Assembly (NCBI GenBank): GCA_035541935.1
Contig: DATKMJ010000063.1
Location: 1-64,000 of the forward strand
DNA length: 64,000 nucleotides
Direction: 5' to 3'
Source of the DNA: Candidatus Binatia bacterium
Lineage (GTDB): Bacteria > Vulcanimicrobiota > Vulcanimicrobiia > Vulcanimicrobiales > Vulcanimicrobiaceae
In this document: positions 2-13,209 of the stretch, piece by piece
How positions within the stretch are numbered: position 1 is the stretch's first letter
How the letters are laid out: each line of letters starts with the position of its first letter
Position numbers and translations under genes: made by a program
Notes under the pieces: generated by a model
What the model was told of the DNA's origin: nothing
Databases searched by the model: none
What the model saw: the letters and a program-made list of their open reading frames with translations, nothing else

Positions 2-1054
2 GCGCAGGCGGTGTGGGGACCTGACGGGCGACAGCGCACCGCGACCATCAACGCCGCTAGCTATTCGGCGCACTGGGACGGCGACGCGTTGCTCTTCTAC
101 GCGAGCGGTACGGGGTCGCCCGAGCTTTACATCGGCAAAGACGCGATCATGGACTCGGCCGGTAACTTTTCCGTCGCTGACCGGGATCAGAGCGGCGAGC
201 AAGTTACGACGCACGGCATCCAAGGGGGCACAGCGTGGTTTGACAGCTGGAACGGCGGGTCAACGCGCAACGTGTATCTAGCAAAACTCGACCAGAGCAA
301 GCCTTATGCCTTCTTTCAAATCGACGGCTCGTGCGGTTGGACGAATCAACAGAACCAGACCTACTATCAGTGTCCGTTTTACCCGGAGTTTGCGATGCAG
401 CGGCCCGACGGGTACAGCATGGTCGGCGGCTACGTGCAAGGTGCGCGCACGTACGATCCCACCGGCGGCCAGTGGCTCACGCCCGATCCCTATTCTGGCA
501 GCGTGCACGACCCGATGTCACAGAAGCCGTTCATGTGGAACGACAACAATCCCGTTGAATATAGCGACCCAAGCGGCTACTGCCCCCTTTGCGCGGCGAT
601 ATTCTTGTTCTACCTCGCCAACGCGCCTGAGATCAACGCGGCGGTTCAGGATTTTGTTGAAGGCGAGGCGGGCGTAGCAGGAGTTTCGGGCAATGTTCGT
701 AGCGCTGCGGAGCGGGCCGGAGAAGAGTCGGTACCTACCGTCGTATTATATAAGAGCAATGCGAAGCCAACGCTGGGCGAGGACCAAAGATTTCTTGACC
801 TGCCGACGATCCGCGACGGTACAGCGCGCAGTTATTGGATCCGGAACTATTCGGAGCTCAGGAGCACAATGTCCGCGGGGAAGCCTATCGAAGACAGCTA
901 TACCCGTGCCAACGGCACGCTAATTGATGCAGGCAAGGGGTCGTTTCTTAATGCCGAAAGGGCCACACTCCGTGACCGCGGTTGGACCTATGACCCCCGC
1001 TCGCGGCTCTGGTCGCCGCCGAAGCCAAAGGCAGAGAGTCCGCACAAGCTCTAG
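2..1054 (+). CDS. RHS repeat-associated core protein, 3' end, with variable C-terminal (toxin-like) domain
   Basis: The frame is open to the window edge, so only the last 350 or so residues are visible. Around residues 140-195 there is the RHS-associated core signature: G-ARTYDPTGGQWLTPDP, then PFMWNDNNPVEYSDPSG. In this family the core ends the beta cocoon, and the sequence after it is a clone-specific effector. Here about 155 residues follow, starting with a short hydrophobic stretch (CPLCAAIFLFYL) and ending in a compact domain with FLNAERATLRDRGW and a W-x-PPKP tail. I do not recognise that tail as a named toxin family. A small ORF begins 3 nt after the stop, the usual position of an immunity gene. 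The toxin role is inferred from architecture. The secretion route cannot be seen because the N-terminus is outside the window. Confidence 0.85.
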   Translation, partial: AQAVWGPDGRQRTATINAASYSAHWDGDALLFYASGTGSPELYIGKDAIMDSAGNFSVADRDQSGEQVTTHGIQGGTAWFDSWNGGSTRNVYLAKLDQSKPYAFFQIDGSCGWTNQQNQTYYQCPFYPEFAMQRPDGYSMVGGYVQGARTYDPTGGQWLTPDPYSGSVHDPMSQKPFMWNDNNPVEYSDPSGYCPLCAAIFLFYLANAPEINAAVQDFVEGEAGVAGVSGNVRSAAERAGEESVPTVVLYKSNAKPTLGEDQRFLDLPTIRDGTARSYWIRNYSELRSTMSAGKPIEDSYTRANGTLIDAGKGSFLNAERATLRDRGWTYDPRSRLWSPPKPKAESPHKL

Positions 1055-1057
1055 CAA

Positions 1058-1639
1058 ATGACAGACGACTGCTTTATTCAGGAAGCTACTAGAACTTTGG
1101 TGCCATCGTTTAGGCGACTTGGTTTTGCGGTAACGCGAAGTTGCTCGCGAAGCATCGAGATGGCGTCCCCCTACTATAAACTGCGTTTGTTTCAAGGGCT
1201 CAAGTCAAATGCCATTGGCTTGGAGCTATACGACGGCGGCGACATAATAAATTTGCAACATCTATTCGCGCTTTCGAAGACCCCTGTACGATCGTTGACG
1301 GCGAGTTCTCGTATCGCTGTCCAGCGCCATCTCCGATGGCTAGACTCTTTCTTGTTCCCACGGTTCGAGAGGCTCTTATCGGGTGATACGTTGGAACGAA
1401 GCACCGTCTTCCAGCAGGCGAAGGCGCATGATGCTCATTTTACCTACGAGCTAACGCTGAGCCCGCGAATACAGGAAGCAAATGGTGCCTTTCGTGAGAA
1501 GCGCTATGGGGACGTGATTAATATTCTGGGGCCGATCGAGGCGCAACTGACTCCATTACAGCATCGGAAACTGCGGTTTGCACGGGAGGCAGTTCACCGG
1601 AGTGGCGCGACGCAGCGCAGCATTAGGGAAAAAAGCTAA
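1058..1639 (+). CDS. Hypothetical protein, candidate immunity protein for the RHS effector
   Basis: This 193-residue ORF starts with ATG 3 nt after the RHS stop codon, so the two are probably translated together. It has no signal peptide or membrane segment, as expected for a cytoplasmic immunity protein. The N-terminal half contains SPYYKLRLFQGLKSNAIGLE and a following D-G-G-D-I-I-N strand. The C-terminal part (about residues 145-180) is helical and reads like a single TPR-type unit. Base composition is clearly less GC-rich than the chromosome around it, which fits acquisition together with the RHS tip. I recognise no named family. The immunity role rests on position, size and lack of export signals only. 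Confidence 0.6.
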   Translation: MTDDCFIQEATRTLVPSFRRLGFAVTRSCSRSIEMASPYYKLRLFQGLKSNAIGLELYDGGDIINLQHLFALSKTPVRSLTASSRIAVQRHLRWLDSFLFPRFERLLSGDTLERSTVFQQAKAHDAHFTYELTLSPRIQEANGAFREKRYGDVINILGPIEAQLTPLQHRKLRFAREAVHRSGATQRSIREKS

Positions 1640-3151: not shown

Positions 3152-3625
3152 ATGGCGATCGCAGTCGTGGTTCTGCTGGCTCAGAGTTTCTTCGGCGGCC
3201 TGCCGATCGACGGCATCTCATGCGACCGGACGGAAGGCGCGGTGGAGCACATCCACGTCTCGCTGCAACTCTACGACCGCGGGCGCGCCGTCAAGGTACC
3301 CGCGGAAATCGGCATGCCGCAGGGCGCCGACTGTCTCTATTGGATCCACACGCACACCGCCGACGGCTTCATTCATATCGAGGCGCCGGTCAAACGTTCG
3401 TTCGACCTCGGCGAGTTCTTTGACATCTGGGGGCCCAACCTGAGCGTGACGCAGGCCGCGAGCGTCGTCGCGCCGAGCGGAAAGCGTCTCTCGATCTGGG
3501 TGGACGGCAAGCCGTGGCACGGCAGCAATCCGCGGAAGATTGTCTTCCACGACCACCAGACGATCGTCATCCAGAACGGACCGCCCTTCGCCACGCCGTC
3601 GCACCCGGACTGGTCGAAGTTTTGA
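3152..3625 (+). CDS. Conserved-looking hypothetical protein upstream of hutH
   Basis: A 157-residue protein. I chose the ATG at 3152 rather than the one at 3086 because it places a short hydrophobic stretch (MAIAVVVLLAQSFFGGLP) at the N-terminus, a possible signal or anchor. The body is rich in His and aromatic residues, with EHIHVSLQLYDRG, YWIHTHTADGFIHIE and a C-terminal IVFHDHQTIVIQNG strand. The H-x-H clusters suggest metal binding or a beta-sandwich, but I cannot name a family. Its stop overlaps the hutH start in the form TTGA, so the two should be translationally coupled. A role in histidine use is only suggested by that coupling. Confidence 0.65.
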   Translation: MAIAVVVLLAQSFFGGLPIDGISCDRTEGAVEHIHVSLQLYDRGRAVKVPAEIGMPQGADCLYWIHTHTADGFIHIEAPVKRSFDLGEFFDIWGPNLSVTQAASVVAPSGKRLSIWVDGKPWHGSNPRKIVFHDHQTIVIQNGPPFATPSHPDWSKF

Positions 3626-5148
3626 AAACGGTCGAGCTGGACGGCCGCAGCCTGACGCTCGAGCAGATCGATGCCGTCGCAGCGGGTGCACCGGCAGCCG
3701 TCACTCCCGCTGCTCGAGAGCGCGTCAAGCGCGCCCGCGATTTCGTCGACGCGCGCTTCGCCGGCGGCGAGGCGATCTACGGCGTGACGACCGGGTTCGG
3801 CCGGCTTGCGAACATCCCGGTCGATCCGGTTGACGCCGTCGCGCTCCAGCTCAATCTCGTACGCAGCCATGCCGCCGGGACGGGCGCGCCGCTCTCGATT
3901 CCGGTCGTTCGCGCCGCGGGCGTCTTGCGCGCCAACTCGCTCTCGGCCGGCCACTCCGGCGTGAAGCTCGAGACGCTCGACTTGATCCTCGCGATGCTCG
4001 ATCGGGGGGTGACGCCCGTCGTCCCGTGCCAAGGCTCCGTCGGCGCGAGCGGCGATCTCGCGCCGCTCGCGCACATGACGCTCGCGCTCCTCGGTGAGGG
4101 CGAGGCCTTCTATCGCGGCGAGCGCCTTCCGAGCGCCGTCGCGCTCGAGCGCGCCGGACTCAAGCCGATCTCTCTCGGCGCGAAGGAAGGGCTCGCGCTC
4201 GTCAACGGTACGCAGGTGATGACGGCGGTCGCCGCGCTCGGCGTTCTACGCGCCGAGCGGCTCGCCGCCGCCGCCGACCTCATCGGCGCGATCTCGCTCG
4301 AGGCCTATCTCGGGACGGAGAGGGTCTTCGATCGCCGGCTCAACGAGCTGCGCCCCCACCCCGGGCAAGAACGCGTCGCCGCGAATCTGCGTGCGCTGCT
4401 CGCAGATTCGGAGATCGTCCGCTCGCACGCCGAGTGCGACCGCGTTCAGGATCCCTATTCGTTCCGCTGCATTCCGGTCGTCCACGGTGCCGTTGTTGAC
4501 TCGATCTCGCACGTCCGAAGGGTGACGGAGATCGAGGCCAACTCGGTCACCGACAACCCGCTCGTCTTTCCCGACGACGAGGAGTTCATCTCGGGCGGCA
4601 ACTTCCACGGCGAGCCGATCGCGCTGGCGATCGATTTTTTAAAGATCGCCGTCTCGGAGCTCGCTTCGATCGGAGAACGGCGCCTCTACCTCCTGCTCAA
4701 CGCCGAGGATCGCGGCTTACCGCTCTTCCTTACGCGGCGGCTCGGGCTCCAATCGGGGCTGATGATCGTGCAGTACACGGCGGCGGCGCTCGTCAACGAC
4801 GACAAGGGCCTCGCGTGGCCGTCGAGCGTCGACTCGATTCCCACCTCGGCCGGTCAAGAGGATCACGTCAGCATGGGAATGACGTCGGCGAACAATTTGG
4901 TGCGCGTGCTCGACAACGTCGAGGGCGCGCTGGCCTGCGAGTTGCTCGGCGCGCTCGCCGCGACCGATTTCCGGCGCCCGCTGAAGTCGGGGCGCGGCAC
5001 CGCGGCCGCGTACGAGGTCGCGCGCGCGGCGATCCCGCCGTGGACCGAGGACCGGCCTCCCGCTCCCGACATTGCCGCGGCGCGCGAACTGATCGCGTCG
5101 CGACGGCTCGTCGAGGCCGCCGAATCGGCGATCGGGCGGCGCCTATAG
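3622..5148 (+). CDS. hutH: Histidine ammonia-lyase
   Basis: HutH removes ammonia from L-histidine to give urocanate, the first step of histidine degradation, in the cytoplasm. The Ala-Ser-Gly triad that cyclises into the MIO electrophile is present in GSVGASGDLAPLAHM, with the YGVTTGFG and NSLSAGHSGV blocks ahead of it. The length, 508 residues, is normal. I place the start at TTG 3622, giving MKTVELDGRSLTLEQ; it overlaps the upstream stop as TTGA. The longer open frame back to 3514 lies inside the previous gene and has no homologous sequence. Its stop abuts that of the convergent TonB receptor (5143-5148 read CTATAG). The rest of the hut pathway follows on the far side of that receptor. Confidence 0.95.
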   Translation: MKTVELDGRSLTLEQIDAVAAGAPAAVTPAARERVKRARDFVDARFAGGEAIYGVTTGFGRLANIPVDPVDAVALQLNLVRSHAAGTGAPLSIPVVRAAGVLRANSLSAGHSGVKLETLDLILAMLDRGVTPVVPCQGSVGASGDLAPLAHMTLALLGEGEAFYRGERLPSAVALERAGLKPISLGAKEGLALVNGTQVMTAVAALGVLRAERLAAAADLIGAISLEAYLGTERVFDRRLNELRPHPGQERVAANLRALLADSEIVRSHAECDRVQDPYSFRCIPVVHGAVVDSISHVRRVTEIEANSVTDNPLVFPDDEEFISGGNFHGEPIALAIDFLKIAVSELASIGERRLYLLLNAEDRGLPLFLTRRLGLQSGLMIVQYTAAALVNDDKGLAWPSSVDSIPTSAGQEDHVSMGMTSANNLVRVLDNVEGALACELLGALAATDFRRPLKSGRGTAAAYEVARAAIPPWTEDRPPAPDIAAARELIASRRLVEAAESAIGRRL

Positions 5149-8100
5149 GCTGACGTTGATCGTCAGATACGCGTTGAAGGGATTGGGAAGCACGTAGGAG
5201 TTCGTATCGGCGTACGCCGGTATGTACGACGGTGCGAAGGCCGGATTGAGCGGCACGCCGTTCGCGCCGCGATCGTTCGGCGAGACGCCGTTGTAGAAGT
5301 TCGAGACGTAGTAGTAGTTCGAGACGTAGCCGCACGTGTAGCCGTTGGGCGGGAACTGCTTCGTCCACGGCTCCGACGATCCGCCGAAGCACGCGTTGAA
5401 GAGGTTCGCCATCAGCAGGTTCGCCTTGATCCGCGGCGTGATCTGATACGACATCTGCAGGCTGAGATTGAGCTGGTTGGGCTGGCGGAACGCGCCGAAG
5501 CCGTCGAAGACGCCCGTCTGCGGGTTGGGGATGAAGAGCTCGCCCGGCGACGTTCCGTTCTGCGTCGCCGCGAGGAAGCACGTCGTGTAGTCGGCCTGCA
5601 GCGGATTCTTCGTGTGGATCGGCGAGCCGGTGAGCCCCCTCGAGTTGTTCGTGCAGACCCGCGGGTCGATGCCGACGACGTCGGCGGGATTGCCGTAGGG
5701 CTGGCCCTCGTTGAACGTCAGCGCGGGCGTCACCGCGAACCGGTTGCGCTTGTAGTTGACGATCGCGCTGACGACGTTCGGGGAGAGATACGCATAGTCG
5801 AGACCGACGGGATACCAGCCGTTGCGGTCGAGCAGCGGCTGCGGCGACATCGCGTAATACGGATTCCAGATCGGCGGATTGTACTGCGGTTTGAGCCGCA
5901 CGCAGTTCGGGTCGGGGAAGACGTGCCCGAACTTGTTGTTCTCGTAGCACTGGGAACCGCCGCCGGCCCGCGTCAGGCCGTTGAAGTTCGCGATATCCTG
6001 GTTGTAGGGGTCGATCGGATTGATCGAGGTCCCGGGATAATCGTTCCACCGCTCGGCCGCGTTCGTGTACGTGTAGGAGATGATGAACGAGAGCCCGTTC
6101 TTGCTGAAGTCGCCTTTCGTAAATTCGGTCTCGAAGCCGTCGACTCGCTCGACGCCGGTATTCAATCCGCCGGTGAGGCCGAAGGGAAGCCCGATGTTGT
6201 AGATCTGGTTCGTCGCGTAGCGGTAGTACGGCGTTACCTTGATCGACATGTCGGTGCCCTTGAAGCGCCGCTCGTACGAGAGGTCGTAGTTCTGCGAATA
6301 CTGCACCTGCGGATCGTGGCGCGGCGTCGTGTAGCCGTACTGCCAGAAAGCCTGGAAGAGATCGTACGCGAGGTTGTTGTCCTTCGCGTTGTACTGCACC
6401 TGATACGTCTCCGGCTCTTGCGCGTAGACGCCGGCCGAGAGCCGCACCACCGTGTCGGGGTTGAAGGTATACGTCGCACCGAGGCGCGGGGTGAACGCAT
6501 AGTCGGTCAAGGTCGGATCGTACGAGTTGCTCAGCAGCAGGTGTCCGTCTTTGCCGTCGGGGTGCACGGTTTGCACGGGATGCGCCGGAATCGAGTTATC
6601 CATCGGGCAGTTGAAGCCGATGAACGGTGCCGGCGGGCGGCCGCTGGCCGGCGGTGTCGGAATGAAGTACGGCGCGAGCGTGTCGGGATTGTAGCAGAAC
6701 TCCCGCTGGCCGGCTAAGAACCAGAAGTTCTGCCCGTTGTTCGACGTGTTCGCGAGATCGTATCCGTAGATCTCGTCGCGTAATCCGATGTCGACGTTGA
6801 GCTGGTCGGTCGGATTCCAGAGATCCTCGAGCGCGAACGCCGTGAAGTTCGGCTGGACGTTATTGAGAAAGCCCGAGTTTCCGGTGTACGTGATTTGCCA
6901 CGACGCGCCCGCGATCGCCGGGCCGGGCTGCGGATCGGTGAAGGTGCCGCTCGTCAGCGGCGTGTTGCACGGGGCGACCTGACCCGCGCGGTAGTGCTCG
7001 CCCTCGTAACTTCCCGATTCCCAGGCGAAGCATTCGCTGCCGTTGGTCAGGCTCGTCGCGTCGGTGAAGATCGTGTTGTTGAAGTTCGTGTTGTTGAAGC
7101 GGTTCGTGCTCGCCGTCGTGTAGTTGGCGTCGAAGGTTAGCAGATGCTGCGAGCTCAGCTGGTTCGCGTAGGTGAAGGCGAGCCCGCGGGTGTGCGACTC
7201 GAGCTCGTAATCGTAGCTCGTGACGCCGAAGCCGAAGAAGGGCGTGCCGTAGCTCAGCGGGCTGGTCTGCAGCCAATCCGAGTAGAACGTGTAGCCGTAG
7301 ATTCTAAAATAGGCGTTCGAGCCGATGTTGTGTTGGTATTGCAGCTTGACGATCGAGGCGTTGTTCCAGAACGCGTCGCGCGCGTCGGGCGGCACGGCGG
7401 AGTACGTGCCGGGCGCGCACTGTCCGGAGATCGCGGGAATCCCCGGGAAGTTGTACGGATTGATGTTCGCGCAGCGGTTGCCGGGCGAGCCGGGATCGAA
7501 ATACGGAATCGGCGAGACGCCCGACGGGCTTTGGCCGAAGTGCGTGTTGCCCGGCCACGTGATGAAGTCGCCCCACACTTCGGGAACCGGCTCGCCGTAA
7601 ACGACGTCGCTGAGCTGCGTGATGACGTGCGGCCCGAGATCGTTGAGCGAGCTGTAGAACTGCGTGTGCATCGCCGTCACGTTGTAGAGAACCTGAACGT
7701 CGTCGCGCCCCGCGTCCTTGCGATGCGGGATCCCGAAGTGCAAGTTGATCACGTTCTCCCAGTCCGAGATGTTCGAATAACTCGCATACGCGGGCGAGAT
7801 CGTCTGATAGCAGCCCGGGTCGTTCGAGAGCCCGTGCGGCCCCCTCTTGTTGACCGGGAGCGGTTCGTAGCCGGGCTGGCCCGGGCTCAACTGAAACGGA
7901 TCGTAGACCGGCGACGAGTTCGGCCCGTCGTAGAATCCCGTGCCGGACGGCGCGGTGTTGACGCACGTCGGATAGACGCCGCCGAAGTAGAGGTAGGTCG
8001 TGTTGTACGCGATCGCCGGATATCCCCAGACGTCGCCGAGGTTCGAGCCGTTGAACTGATCGAGGTAGCGATAGCCTTGGTTGTAGCCGCCGATCCCGAC

Positions 8101-8958
8101 GTAGTAGGAGAAGAGGCGGTCGGGCGTCGCGCCGCCGACCTCGAACTGTACGTTATGGTAGTACGTCGGCGAGCCGATGCCGGCGTCGACGTTGGCGTAG
8201 CCGGGGTAGGTTCCGGTCTTCGTCACCTGATTGATGAAGCCGGCGAGTCCGCTTGCCGCCTCTCCCGCGGTTCCGCCGCCGGCGTAGACCTGCAGCTCTT
8301 GCTGGCCGAGCGTTCCGGCCGTTCCACCGGGGTAATTGTCGAACGAACGGTTGACCGGAACGCCGTCGAACTCGTAGCCGATCTGGTCGTAGCTGCCGCC
8401 GCGGATGTAGACGACTTGCGCCCAGCCCTGCTGATTCGGCGGCACGAACGCGCCGGGAACGGCGGAGATCGCCGAGTACGCGTTGTTGAGGTTGCCGCCG
8501 CCGCCCAATCCGGCCGCGGCCTGCGTGACCGCCGAGTTGACCGAGTAGACGTCGCTCGTCGTGCCCGACTTCACGAGGTCGAGCGAGGAGCGCGCCGTTA
8601 CGTGCGCGATCGTGCGCAACGACGGCGCCAGCGCGATGCGCAGCGTCTGCAGCTGGTCGGCGAAGACCGAGACGCCGGTCGTCGTCGAGGTCTCAAAGCC
8701 GTCCTTCGAAACGGTGATCGTGTACGTGTCGGGCGCGAGCGTCAGCAGGGCGAAGCGCCCCGAGGCGTCGGTCGTGACGACCGCAGTCTGCGACGGGCTC
8801 GTCGCGGAGATCCGCGCTCCGGCGACGGGCGCCTTCGTCGTGCTCGTGACCGAGCCGGTAATCGAGCCGGTCGTTCCGCCGCGCGCGCCCGTTCCGAGCG
8901 ACGCAAAACCTCCCGCGATCGATAGGAGCAAGAGCGACCGTATGACAGAGCGCGGCAT
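5143..8958 (-). CDS. TonB-dependent receptor with N-terminal carboxypeptidase-like regulatory domain
   Basis: A large outer-membrane protein of 1271 residues. A signal peptide ([18 protein letters not shown]) is followed by a carboxypeptidase regulatory-like beta sandwich (about residues 30-115, with [19 protein letters not shown] and [18 protein letters not shown]). A plug domain ([20 protein letters not shown], about 185-205) and a Tyr/Asn-rich beta barrel come next, closing with an aromatic-alternating C-terminal strand (AYLTINVSL). Such receptors take up bulky substrates using TonB energy. It sits in antisense orientation between hutH and hutU, so a role in peptide or histidine-compound uptake is possible but unproven. 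The 56 bp between its start and hutU must hold both divergent promoters. No TonB/ExbBD genes are in the window. Confidence 0.9.
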
Positions 8959-9014
8959 CCACGGTCGTTATCGCTGCCGAAGGTCTTGTCCTCGTCCCAA
9001 AGAATTCTCGCCTC

Positions 9015-10673
9015 ATGACGATGATGGCCGGTCCTCGCGCCGTTCGAGCCCCGCGCGGCCGAGAACTTTCGTGCCTTGGTTGGCCGCAAGAAGCGGCGCT
9101 GCGCATGTTGATGAACAACCTCGATCCCGACGTCGCCGAGCGTCCCGAAGATCTCGTCGTCTACGGGGGAAACGGCCGGGCCGCGCGTTCGTGGGAGGCC
9201 TTCGATGCGATCGTGCGCACGTTGCGGCGGCTCGGAGGCGACGAGACGCTCATCGTGCAGAGCGGCAAGCCCGTCGCGGTCTGGAAGACGCACGCGCGGG
9301 CGCCGCGCGTCTTGATCGCCAACGCCAACCTCGTGCCGAAGTGGGCCGATTGGGAAGTCTTCCGCGAGTTGGAACGGCAGGGGCTGACGATGTACGGCCA
9401 GATGACGGCCGGCTCGTGGATCTACATCGGCACGCAGGGCATCGTCCAGGGAACCTACGAGACCTTTGCCGAGCTGGCGCGCCGGCACTTCGGCGGATCG
9501 CTCGAGCGCCGCGTGACGCTCACGGCGGGGGTCGGCGGCATGGGCGGCGCGCAGCCGCTCGCGGTGACGATGAACGGCGGCGTCTGTTTGATCGTGGACG
9601 TGGACCGCACGCGCCTGGACCGCCGCCGCGAGCTGCGGTATCTCGATCGCGTCGCCGACTCGCGCGAGGCGGCGCTGCGTGAGGTCGAGCGTGCCCGCGA
9701 CGCCGGCGAGGCGCTCTCCATCGGTTATGAAGGCAACGCCGCGGTCGAGTTTCCGGAGCTTTACGAGCTCGGCTTCCGCCCCGACGCCGTGACCGACCAA
9801 ACCTCGGCGCACGATCTGTTGGGCGGCTACGTTCCCGCGGGAGTCTCGTTGGTGCAAGCCGCCGATTTGCGGACGCGCGATCCGCGCGAGTACGAGCGCC
9901 GCGCGCTCGAGAGTTGCGGAGCGCACGTCGCAGCGATGGTTCGCTACCTCGACGCGGGCGCGGTCGTCTTCGATTACGGCAACAACATTCGTTTGCAGGC
10001 GGAGCGCGCCGGCTTCGCGCGAGCCTTTGCATTTCCCGGATTCGTGCCGGCGTTCATTCGCCCGCTCTTCTGCCGCGGCTCGGGTCCGTTTCGCTTTGCG
10101 GCGCTCTCGGGCGATCCGGACGATATCGCGCGCTGCGACGAGAAGCTGCTCGAGCTCTTCCCCGAGGACGCCTCGCTGGCGCGCTGGATCCGGCTCGCTC
10201 GCGAACGGATCGAGTTTCAGGGGCTCCCCGCGCGCATCTGCTGGCTCGGCTACGGCGATCGCGCGAAGGCTGGGCTCGCGTTCAACGAGCTCGTGCGTTC
10301 GGGCGCCGTGAGCGCGCCGATCGTCATCGGGCGCGACCATCTCGATACCGGCAGCGTCGCTTCGCCGTATCGCGAGACCGAAGCGATGCGCGACGGGAGC
10401 GACGCGATCGCCGACTGGCCGATACTCAACGCGCTGCTCAACACGGCGGCCGGCGCGGACTGGGTGAGCTTCCACCACGGCGGCGGCGTCGGCATCGGGT
10501 ACAGCCTCCACGCGGGCATGGTCGTCGTCGCCGACGGCAGCGACGGGGCGCGCGAGCGTCTCGCCTGCGTGCTGACGACCGACTCCGGCATGGGCGTCGT
10601 GCGCCACGCCGACGCAGGGTACGAAATCGCGATCGAGACCGCCGACGCGAAAGGGATTGATTGGCGCCTCTGA
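9015..10673 (+). CDS. hutU: Urocanate hydratase
   Basis: HutU hydrates urocanate to imidazolonepropionate using NAD as an electrophile. The protein is 552 residues, normal for the family. Conserved blocks include [20 protein letters not shown] near the N-terminus, the NAD-binding [24 protein letters not shown], the [16 protein letters not shown] segment around the active-site Cys, and [17 protein letters not shown] near the C-terminus. The ATG at 9015 gives the usual short N-terminal extension before RAPRG-ELSC. I see no clear Shine-Dalgarno sequence. The 3' end overlaps hutI by 13 nt, so hutU, hutI and the HutF-like gene form one operon. Confidence 0.95.
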
Positions 10674-11920
10674 TCGTCCGCGCGAAGACGATCGTAACGT
10701 GCGATACGGATGCCCCGCAATGCGGCATAGACTTTAACGCGCTCGGCCGCATTGACGACGCGCGACTCGTCATCGAGGACGGCACGTTTGCCGCGGTCGG
10801 CGCCGCTTCGGGTGTCGCCCCGAGCGGAGTCGAAGCGCGAAACGCAGAGGAAGTCGACCTGCACGATTGCGTGATCGTGCCGGGCTTTGTGGACGCGCAC
10901 GCGCACCCGCTCTATGCCGGCGATCGCGAGCCCGACTTCGCAGCGCGTTCGAAGGGCGAGCCGCCGCCGCTGGGGATGCTGCATACGATCGAGCGAACGC
11001 GAGAGGCGCTGCTTGATCCGGCGGCGTTCTACGACGAGACGATTCGGCCGCGCCTGCGGACGATGCTCGCGCACGGCACGACGACGCTCGAGACAAAAAC
11101 GGGTTACGCGCTCCACAAGCCCGGTGAGGCGGCGCTGCTCGACATCGTCGCCGCACACAGCGACGACCCGGACGTTCCGCGCCTGATCGCGACGTTTCTC
11201 GGGGCGCACGCGCTGCCGCCCGAGTTCACGAACGAGGCGGCGTTCGTGGATTATCTCATCGATCAGGTGATTCCGGCGGCAGCCGCTCATCGGGCGGTCT
11301 ACGCCGATGCCTTCTGCGAACCGGGTTTCTTCTCGCCCGAGCAGACCCGCAGATATCTCGACGCGGCGCGCTTGCACGGGATGCGCCTGCGGGTCCACTG
11401 CGACGAGATGGCCTACGGCGGCGCGGCGACGATGGCGGCGCAGCTCGACGTAGACGCCGTGGATCACTGCAACTTCATCGGCGACGCCGACGTCGCGGAG
11501 ATCGCACGGCGCGGCGTCGTCACCGTCGCCTGCCCCGCGACGATTGCCTACCTCGATCTCCCGCGGCGCGCGCCGGTGCGCGCCCTGCTCGAAGCGGGCG
11601 GTTCGGTCGCGCTGGCCAGCGATTACAATCCCGGCACGTCGCCGTGCTTCAACCTGCAGACGGTTGCGTTCTTCGGCCGGCAGCTCTTCGGAGTGAGCGC
11701 CGCCGAGGCGCTCTACGGCGTGACGCGCGCCGCGGCGCACTCGCTTCGAACCGACGCCGGAAGAATTCGCCCGGGCGCCCGCGCGGACTTCGTCGCGCTG
11801 CGGATCGAATCGCCCGACGAGTTCGGATGGCAGTTCGGCGGCAACCTCGCCGCCGCCGTCTTCAAAAACGGCACGCCTGTCGACAGTGTCATGCTGAGCT
11901 TGTCGAAGCACGAAGCATGA
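10661..11920 (+). CDS. hutI: Imidazolonepropionase
   Basis: HutI opens the imidazolone ring to give N-formimino-L-glutamate. This amidohydrolase-fold enzyme shows its metal ligands in [16 protein letters not shown], in the HCDEM and [11 protein letters not shown] blocks, and in [12 protein letters not shown] take the TTG at 10661 as start, overlapping hutU by 13 nt; it gives [15 protein letters not shown]. Residues 50-60 ([12 protein letters not shown]) are encoded by a stretch resembling a dispersed palindromic repeat. The last residues ([11 protein letters not shown]) are encoded by another copy, which also supplies the stop codon and the start of the next gene. The catalytic core looks intact. 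Confidence 0.93.
10812..10843. repeat. Possible degenerate REP-like element inside hutI
   Basis: The 32 bases resemble the dispersed palindromic motif seen twice more in this window: GTGTC, then CCC-GAGC, GGAGTCGAAG and a final GCG. They encode an insert-like loop ([11 protein letters not shown]) in the poorly conserved N-terminal sandwich of HutI. The match is weaker than in the other two copies, so this may be chance in GC-rich coding sequence. Confidence 0.3.
11886..11920. repeat. REP-like palindromic element spanning the hutI/hutF junction
   Basis: The sequence contains GTCATGCTGAGCTTGTCGAA followed by GCACGAAGCATGA. It matches the consensus of a dispersed element common in several GC-rich bacteria, recognisable when translated as [10 protein letters not shown]. 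It encodes the last residues of HutI and supplies the hutI stop (TGA 11918-11920) and the start codon of the next gene (ATG 11917-11919). Confidence 0.65.
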
Positions 11921-13209
11921 ACGAACTCGTACGCTGCGCGCGCGCGATCGTTTCGGGCGAGTTGCGCGAGGATTACGCCTTCGTCGTGCGCGACGGCGCG
12001 ATCGCCGTGGCGGGCGACTTCCTCACGGTGCGCGACGGCGCGCGCGACCTCGGGGCGCGCACCTTTCCGAGCGACCGGCTCGTGGTGCCTGGATTTATTA
12101 ACGGACATAGCCACGCGTATCAGATCCTGCTGCGCGGCTGGGCCGACGACTGGCCATTCGCGAAGTGGCGCAGCGAGGCGCTCTATCGCATCGTTCCACG
12201 GCTGACGCCCGAGGACGTGTACTGGACCTTCGTTGCGGCCTTCTCCGAGATGCTGGCCGCCGGCATCACGACGGTTGCGGAGTTCTTCTATCTCAACGGC
12301 GCGGGCAACGAGCACGCCGAAGCGGCGATCCGCGCGGCGCGCGACACCGGCATCTCGATCGTTCTCGCGCGAACCTGGATGGACGCGGCGTATGCGCCGC
12401 CGGAGTTTCGCGAGGACGCGGAGACGGCGGCGCGCCGCACCGCCGAGCTGATGGAGCGCTACCCCGATGCAAACGTCTGCGTCGCGCCCCACTCGCTGCA
12501 CGCGGCGTCGCGCGAGATGATCCGCGCTGCGGCGGAGTTCTCGCGCTCGCGCGACTGCATGCTCCACGTCCACGTCGCCGAGGCGCCGTACGAAGGCGAG
12601 GAGACCGTTCGTCGGTTCGGCACGACGCCGGTGCGGCTGCTCGACGAGCTCGGAGCGCTCAACGAGCGCACGGTCGCGATCCATGCGATTTATCTGACTG
12701 AGGAGGAACGAGAGTTGCTCGCACGCAGGGGCGCGCGCGTCGTGCACAACCCGATGACCAATCAATACCTCGGCGACGGGATCTGCGACGTGCAGCGGCT
12801 CTCGGCCCTCGGCGTACCGATCGGGCTCGGAACCGATGCCGACGTGCGCCCCTCGCTGATCGACGAGATGCGCGCGGCCGCGCTGCTGCAGAAGACGCTC
12901 CACCTCGACGGCGCGGCGCTGAGCGCGGGGCAAGCCTTCGCGCTTGGCACATCGCAGGGAGCGCGCGTGCTGCGCGTGCGCGGCGGCGACCTCGTCGAAG
13001 GCGCGCCGGCCGACTACGTCGTGCTCGATGCGTCGAAGGTCGATCCGTGGTCGCCGCCGCTCAACGCGCTCGTCTATCGCGGCGAGGACGCATGGGTACA
13101 GGCGACGTTCGCCGGCGGCCGGCGAGTCTACGTGGGCGAGCCCTCACCGCTCGCGCGCACGGCGACGGAGAAGACCGCCGCAATCGCGTCGCGAACCCGC
13201 GCCGCATGA
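11917..13209 (+). CDS. Amidohydrolase, candidate formimidoylglutamate deiminase (HutF-like)
   Basis: A 430-residue amidohydrolase-superfamily enzyme. Metal ligands are in GFINGHSHAYQ (H-x-H), LHVHVAEA, VAIHAIYL and the Asp of GLGTDADVRPS. The string ITTVAEFFYL resembles HutF, and the gene is the last enzyme of the hutU-hutI operon with an ATGA overlap. That makes deamination of formiminoglutamate to N-formylglutamate the best guess. The C-terminal half (VVHNPMTNQYLGDGI) also resembles general ATZ/TRZ and S-adenosylhomocysteine deaminases, so substrate is not certain. No hutG is seen, though a glutamate formimidoyltransferase occurs at 35364-36179. Confidence 0.75.
   Translation: MNELVRCARAIVSGELREDYAFVVRDGAIAVAGDFLTVRDGARDLGARTFPSDRLVVPGFINGHSHAYQILLRGWADDWPFAKWRSEALYRIVPRLTPEDVYWTFVAAFSEMLAAGITTVAEFFYLNGAGNEHAEAAIRAARDTGISIVLARTWMDAAYAPPEFREDAETAARRTAELMERYPDANVCVAPHSLHAASREMIRAAAEFSRSRDCMLHVHVAEAPYEGEETVRRFGTTPVRLLDELGALNERTVAIHAIYLTEEERELLARRGARVVHNPMTNQYLGDGICDVQRLSALGVPIGLGTDADVRPSLIDEMRAAALLQKTLHLDGAALSAGQAFALGTSQGARVLRVRGGDLVEGAPADYVVLDASKVDPWSPPLNALVYRGEDAWVQATFAGGRRVYVGEPSPLARTATEKTAAIASRTRAA

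Follow-up and report, generated by a model that had tools for sequence, protein, structure and literature searches.

The start of the contig most probably carries a polymorphic toxin-immunity module, in which a WapA-like, Sec-exported RHS protein bears a new toxin family and is followed by a two-domain immunity family. We put the probability of this reading at about 0.87. The system is of a known kind. Neither its toxin family nor its immunity family is described in the libraries and papers searched, in line with what an earlier note on this DNA had suggested. Three observations carry the reading: the tip is variable, the toxin domain has homologues in more than one phylum, and one immunity family lies next to it each time at a similar spacing.

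The window, which is the whole stretch of 64,000 nucleotides analysed, begins at the first base of contig G000:C63 (70,174 bp, from a genome of 2.4 Mb). This contig starts part-way through an RHS gene, and the encoded protein therefore lacks its N-terminus here. The remaining ORF (2-1054, forward strand, 350 aa) has its 5' end open at the contig edge, and its reading frame is open and intact. TIGR03696 (Rhs_assc_core) was found at residues 142-192 (E 2.3e-7) and scored 34.3 bits against a cut-off of 32.5 in a search of the genome, confirming the RHS core before the tip. The earlier note had described about 155 residues after this core that matched no toxin family it recognised. The core ends at residue 192 and 158 residues lie beyond it, with no match of note, and none above a curated cut-off, in Pfam, NCBIfam, PADLOC or PHROGs. 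The tip contains FLNAERATLRDRGW and W-x-PP as described, the latter as WSPP, and the coordinates in the note are right too. Its first ~50 residues form a variable linker, and the toxin domain proper comprises about the last 97-113 residues (Table 1). The stop codon at 1052-1054 is separated by 3 nt from the ATG at 1058 of an ORF of 193 aa (1058-1639), in which no signal peptide or hydrophobic segment was found, in agreement with its description as cytoplasmic. The lower GC content that had been remarked on was also seen: it falls from 61.0% in the core to 59.0% in the tip and 52.5% in the downstream ORF, compared to 65.9% for the window, and GC3 falls from 76.7 to 65.6 to 57.0.

Table 1. Features of the toxin-immunity locus (window coordinates).
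Feature	Position	Strand	Basis
RHS core of polymorphic toxin, 5' end beyond contig edge	2..580	+	TIGR03696 motif ~425-577
Variable linker, RHS core to toxin domain	581..736	+	without alignment to G122 or L056 tips before TVV/TLV
Toxin domain, W-x2-N ... G-x-PI ... F-x3-ER-x2-L-x3-GW ... W-x-PP	737..1033	+	homologues L003, L056
Short C-terminal tail and stop codon TAG	1034..1054	+	stop codon at 1052-1054
Candidate immunity protein, 193 aa: N-terminal alpha-beta5-alpha domain and TPR-like helical C-terminus	1058..1639	+	structure model, adjacent homologues

Further along the window, a lipoprotein-like gene with a lipobox LAGC signal lies at 1719-2893 in three overlapping frames (1719-1988, 1813-2349 and 2225-2893) and looks broken by two frameshifts. 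A probable histidine-utilisation cluster (hutH-like, urocanase-like, imidazolonepropionase-like and a second amidohydrolase) lies at 3514-13209, and a TonB-dependent-receptor-like gene of 1271 aa lies on the opposite strand to it at 5143-8958; both were named by sequence appearance only.

The tip occurs as a single copy in its own genome, at the window locus. Five RHS cores are present in this genome, and the five loci have different tips and different downstream genes. Over the core that they share, the RHS proteins on contigs C38, C52 and C63 have 59-61% identity; their tips are unrelated, as are the genes that follow them. This is the usual pattern for a recombining toxin tip. The tip is not a lineage-wide part of RHS proteins, the outcome that the earlier note had set against its own proposal, since the four other RHS proteins of the genome have unrelated tips. 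Those four tips, on contigs C67, C38, C52 and C17 (L061, L062, L063 and L065), have no match to the window tip and are followed by different genes; they are further toxin-immunity candidates.

Searching 149 genomes of the phylum with the tip gave one further real homologue (E 9.7e-12), in another genus of the same family (G122). There, the toxin domain (L003) ends an RHS protein of ~1,700 aa and is 38% identical to that of the window over 80 residues (E 3e-14). The other matches in this search were chance matches on reading. A third copy (L056; E 2e-13), in a Nanopelagicales actinomycete, came from a pattern scan that covered the genomes of 84,980 species and took the window and G122 sequences as queries. 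Its toxin domain forms the last residues of an RHS protein and is 47% identical to the window domain over 62 residues in a pairwise comparison (E 5e-15). In G369 (L058), a truncated toxin relative has an in-frame stop, and no immunity relative adjoins it in the open part read. Three intact homologues of the close family were found in all, with a conserved part of ~97 residues marked by W-x2-N, G-[KR]-PI-x-D, F-x3-ER-x2-L-x3-GW and a final W-x-P. Matches of the toxin query within an ABC transporter (L004) and antisense to glycolytic genes (L005) were dropped after reading as chance matches, as were L007 and the weak A1 matches L013-L030 and L051-L055. No member of the close family was found by tblastn in plasmids and phages or in scans of viral contigs; a match on a Listeria plasmid (H6) was left aside.

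The last hairpin of the toxin domain, TYDPRSRLWSPP (986-1027), resembles the YD motif TYDPTSGQWLTPDP of the RHS core on C38. From this short local similarity, the tip could be seen as a worn or non-toxic RHS end, either a decoy or a structural hairpin. Such a reading is hardly credible for a domain that is kept across phyla with its own neighbour gene and in a frame that is open and intact.

In both G122 and L056, a relative of the 193-aa ORF comes directly after the toxin, starting 2 nt past the stop codon. The immunity family was therefore found directly downstream in 3/3 intact toxin loci, from two phyla, with stop-to-start gaps of 3, 2 and 2 nt. Profile A2, for which the window, G018 and G122 proteins were used and L056 was left out, covered 178 columns in its match to the neighbour in L056 (prob 97.9, E 5e-13), and BLASTP of the window protein against the same neighbour gave E 2e-5. 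The G122 neighbour is tied to the family via the G018 protein (L006; 2e-7) and directly (0.001). The check proposed in the earlier note, on whether the two are neighbours in other genomes, gave two pairs behind RHS proteins, the L056 pair being from a different phylum. Together with the variability of the tip, these pairs support the toxin and immunity organisation.

Another possible explanation is that the downstream ORF belongs to a general family and lies there by chance, rather than being the immunity gene of the toxin. Immunity relatives that stand alone in five genomes of the window's phylum (G018, G016, G098, G130 and G027) favour this explanation. Adjacency in all three intact loci, with gaps of 2-3 nt and in two phyla, argues against it, as its chance occurrence is of the order of 1e-12 under a rough model. 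The distribution of the family in actinobacteria also argues against it: in 396 genomes, the immunity profile was found in one only (G149), beside the toxin, and the informative part of this result is the absence from the 395 others, given that the profile includes L056. We consider the chance explanation very unlikely. The concern that the 193-aa family might occur widely without an RHS tip holds only in a weak form, with five orphans in the phylum and every intact toxin locus paired, because orphan immunity genes are well known (PMC10539506). One of the orphan relatives is transcribed divergently from a small gene whose DUF4329/JAB-type match is near the cut-off. A gene for a HEAT-repeat protein follows the immunity gene in G122 (L003, 203-943) and may be a second immunity gene that dates from an earlier tip.

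The 193-aa protein had no match in Pfam, NCBIfam, PADLOC, PHROGs or PDB sequences, and no Pfam or NCBIfam model matched the members of its family that were tested. An AlphaFold2 model of the protein from a two-sequence run (mean pLDDT 78) shows a helix, a five-stranded antiparallel sheet, a helix, a long helix and helical hairpins, in this order. A fold search with the model gave Z values of at most 6.9; the C-terminal helices matched TPR domains, and the N-terminal part matched CapZ-like sheets. The C-terminal stretch AFREKRYGDVINILGPIEAQLTPLQHRKLRFA has a TPR-like hairpin shape in the model (Z 6.9 over 61 residues, rmsd 4.1), and this likeness may reflect a common arrangement only. Both kinds of match were treated as common arrangements.

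More distant relatives of the toxin domain were found outside the close family. L068, from an actinobacterium (G818), matched the toxin profile (prob 94, E 1.5e-7). An hhalign comparison of A11 with A8, with L068 and two CdiA-type C-termini in the profile, gave prob 91 and E 1.2e-6. These C-termini, L069 from Leptotrichia wadei and L070 from Paraburkholderia, both end CdiA-type proteins, and each alone gave a weaker profile match to the toxin family than the joint profile. The only invariant positions in profile A10 are W, N, G, E, L and G, and the spacing from W to E is 33 residues in L056 and L069 and 40 in the window. Searches of Pfam, NCBIfam and PDB with members of the wider group found no relative. 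In the best reading, the toxin family is a distant offshoot within an unnamed superfamily of RHS and CdiA tips, whose invariant residues are W, N, G and E. A broader proposal is that the tip founds a toxin superfamily of unseen fold or chemistry, present on RHS tips from two phyla and on CdiA tips from two others, and that the two-domain immunity family is a general type of antidote that protects also as an orphan; this is speculative, and we would not expect it to hold in full. The G818 locus was rejected as a toxin-immunity pair, its next gene being only weakly similar (hhalign E 0.0073 in one comparison, prob 5). The locus (L068, 153-2158) has a row of short toxin-like ORFs: one is ADP-ribosyl-cyclase-like by eye only, another is a distant relative of the window toxin, and after it comes a small protein that faintly resembles the immunity family.

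The toxin is most likely a small alpha/beta enzyme that would act in the cytosol, and, without strong confidence, a nuclease seems likelier than an NAD hydrolase. Nuclease activity is the commonest among RHS and CdiA tips, and the tips of many CdiA-type proteins, the class that L069 and L070 end, are tRNases. Many polymorphic toxin tips are nucleases (PMC3482391), so that a nuclease is the best prior guess; a BECR-type RNase would be one example, with its active site covered by the immunity protein. The guess is tentative, as A10 has no conserved histidine or lysine and found no nuclease among PDB sequences. PDB sequence searches with single proteins and with profiles returned noise only. The structure model of the toxin (pLDDT 57) is too weak to use, and its fold matches (no E below 0.5, Z at most 4.4) were rejected.

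A divergent NAD(P)-consuming enzyme akin to the ADP-ribosyl cyclase (CD38-like, ARC) toxins was also considered. The invariant W and E would then be the second W/E pair of the active site, with the immunity protein plugging the cleft. By eye, there is a likeness to the second half of ARC in the order beta-alpha-beta-(W..N..FL..AI..G..I.L)-(F..E...L..G), and the low-confidence structure model shows alpha/beta arrangements. The W-to-E spacing of 33 in L056 and L069 is that of W323 and E356 in ARCtox (PMC12605009); the spacing of 40 in the window departs from it. The first W/E pair of ARC is absent, A10 having one invariant W and one invariant E, and hhalign against one ARC-like ORF gave prob 0.1-0.3, that ORF being assigned by eye without a Pfam or PDB match. 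The profile comparison did not support ARC/CD38 kinship, which we consider unlikely, and a nuclease is kept as the first guess for the activity.

A Sec-like hydrophobic segment stands at the start of the RHS proteins in G122, in L056 and on contig C67 of the window's own genome. Therefore, by analogy, a WapA-like exported shell is more likely for the window protein than a type VI effector. The predicted sequence of events is that the Sec-exported RHS/YD-repeat shell carries the ~97-residue toxin domain at its C-terminal tip and that this domain would be exposed or released towards neighbouring bacteria, where it would be toxic. The downstream gene is probably translationally coupled, and its product would serve as a cytoplasmic immunity protein that binds and blocks the toxin domain, and so neutralises it, within producing cells and their kin.

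Full-text literature searches with one motif string, or for RHS toxins with Eremiobacterota, the phylum guessed from gene content, gave nothing specific, which is weak evidence of novelty as toxin families are mostly not printed as text. One unlisted toxin family and one unlisted immunity family, found together in two phyla, are added to interbacterial warfare. The five RHS tips of this 2.4-Mb genome all differ, which shows a complete RHS tip-switching system at work in the phylum. The connection with CdiA tips opens a way to name a wider set of uncharacterised toxins, and the toxin-immunity pair is small enough for direct testing.

Compared to known systems, the locus is most like the WapA-type Sec-exported RHS toxins, with an RHS/YD core that ends in TIGR03696, a variable tip, a small cytoplasmic protein downstream and relatives with Sec-like starts. 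It differs from them in that the libraries searched contain no known toxin or immunity family to which its tip or downstream gene could be assigned, and its own N-terminus lies beyond the contig. The CdiA-type C-termini L069 and L070 have the W-x2-N ... G ... E-x3-L-x3-G pattern in common with the toxin domain, but their delivery protein is different and no named family exists for them either; the gene after the L069 toxin is unrelated to the window immunity family. The likeness to ARC toxins (PMC12605009) is one seen by eye, in the order of elements and the position of one W and one E, whereas the first W/E pair is missing and the profile comparison lends no support. Like the Imm families (PMC3482391), the candidate immunity protein is alpha+beta, is encoded by a single gene after the toxin and also occurs as orphans, and it stands apart from them in that no Pfam or NCBIfam model matches the members tested.
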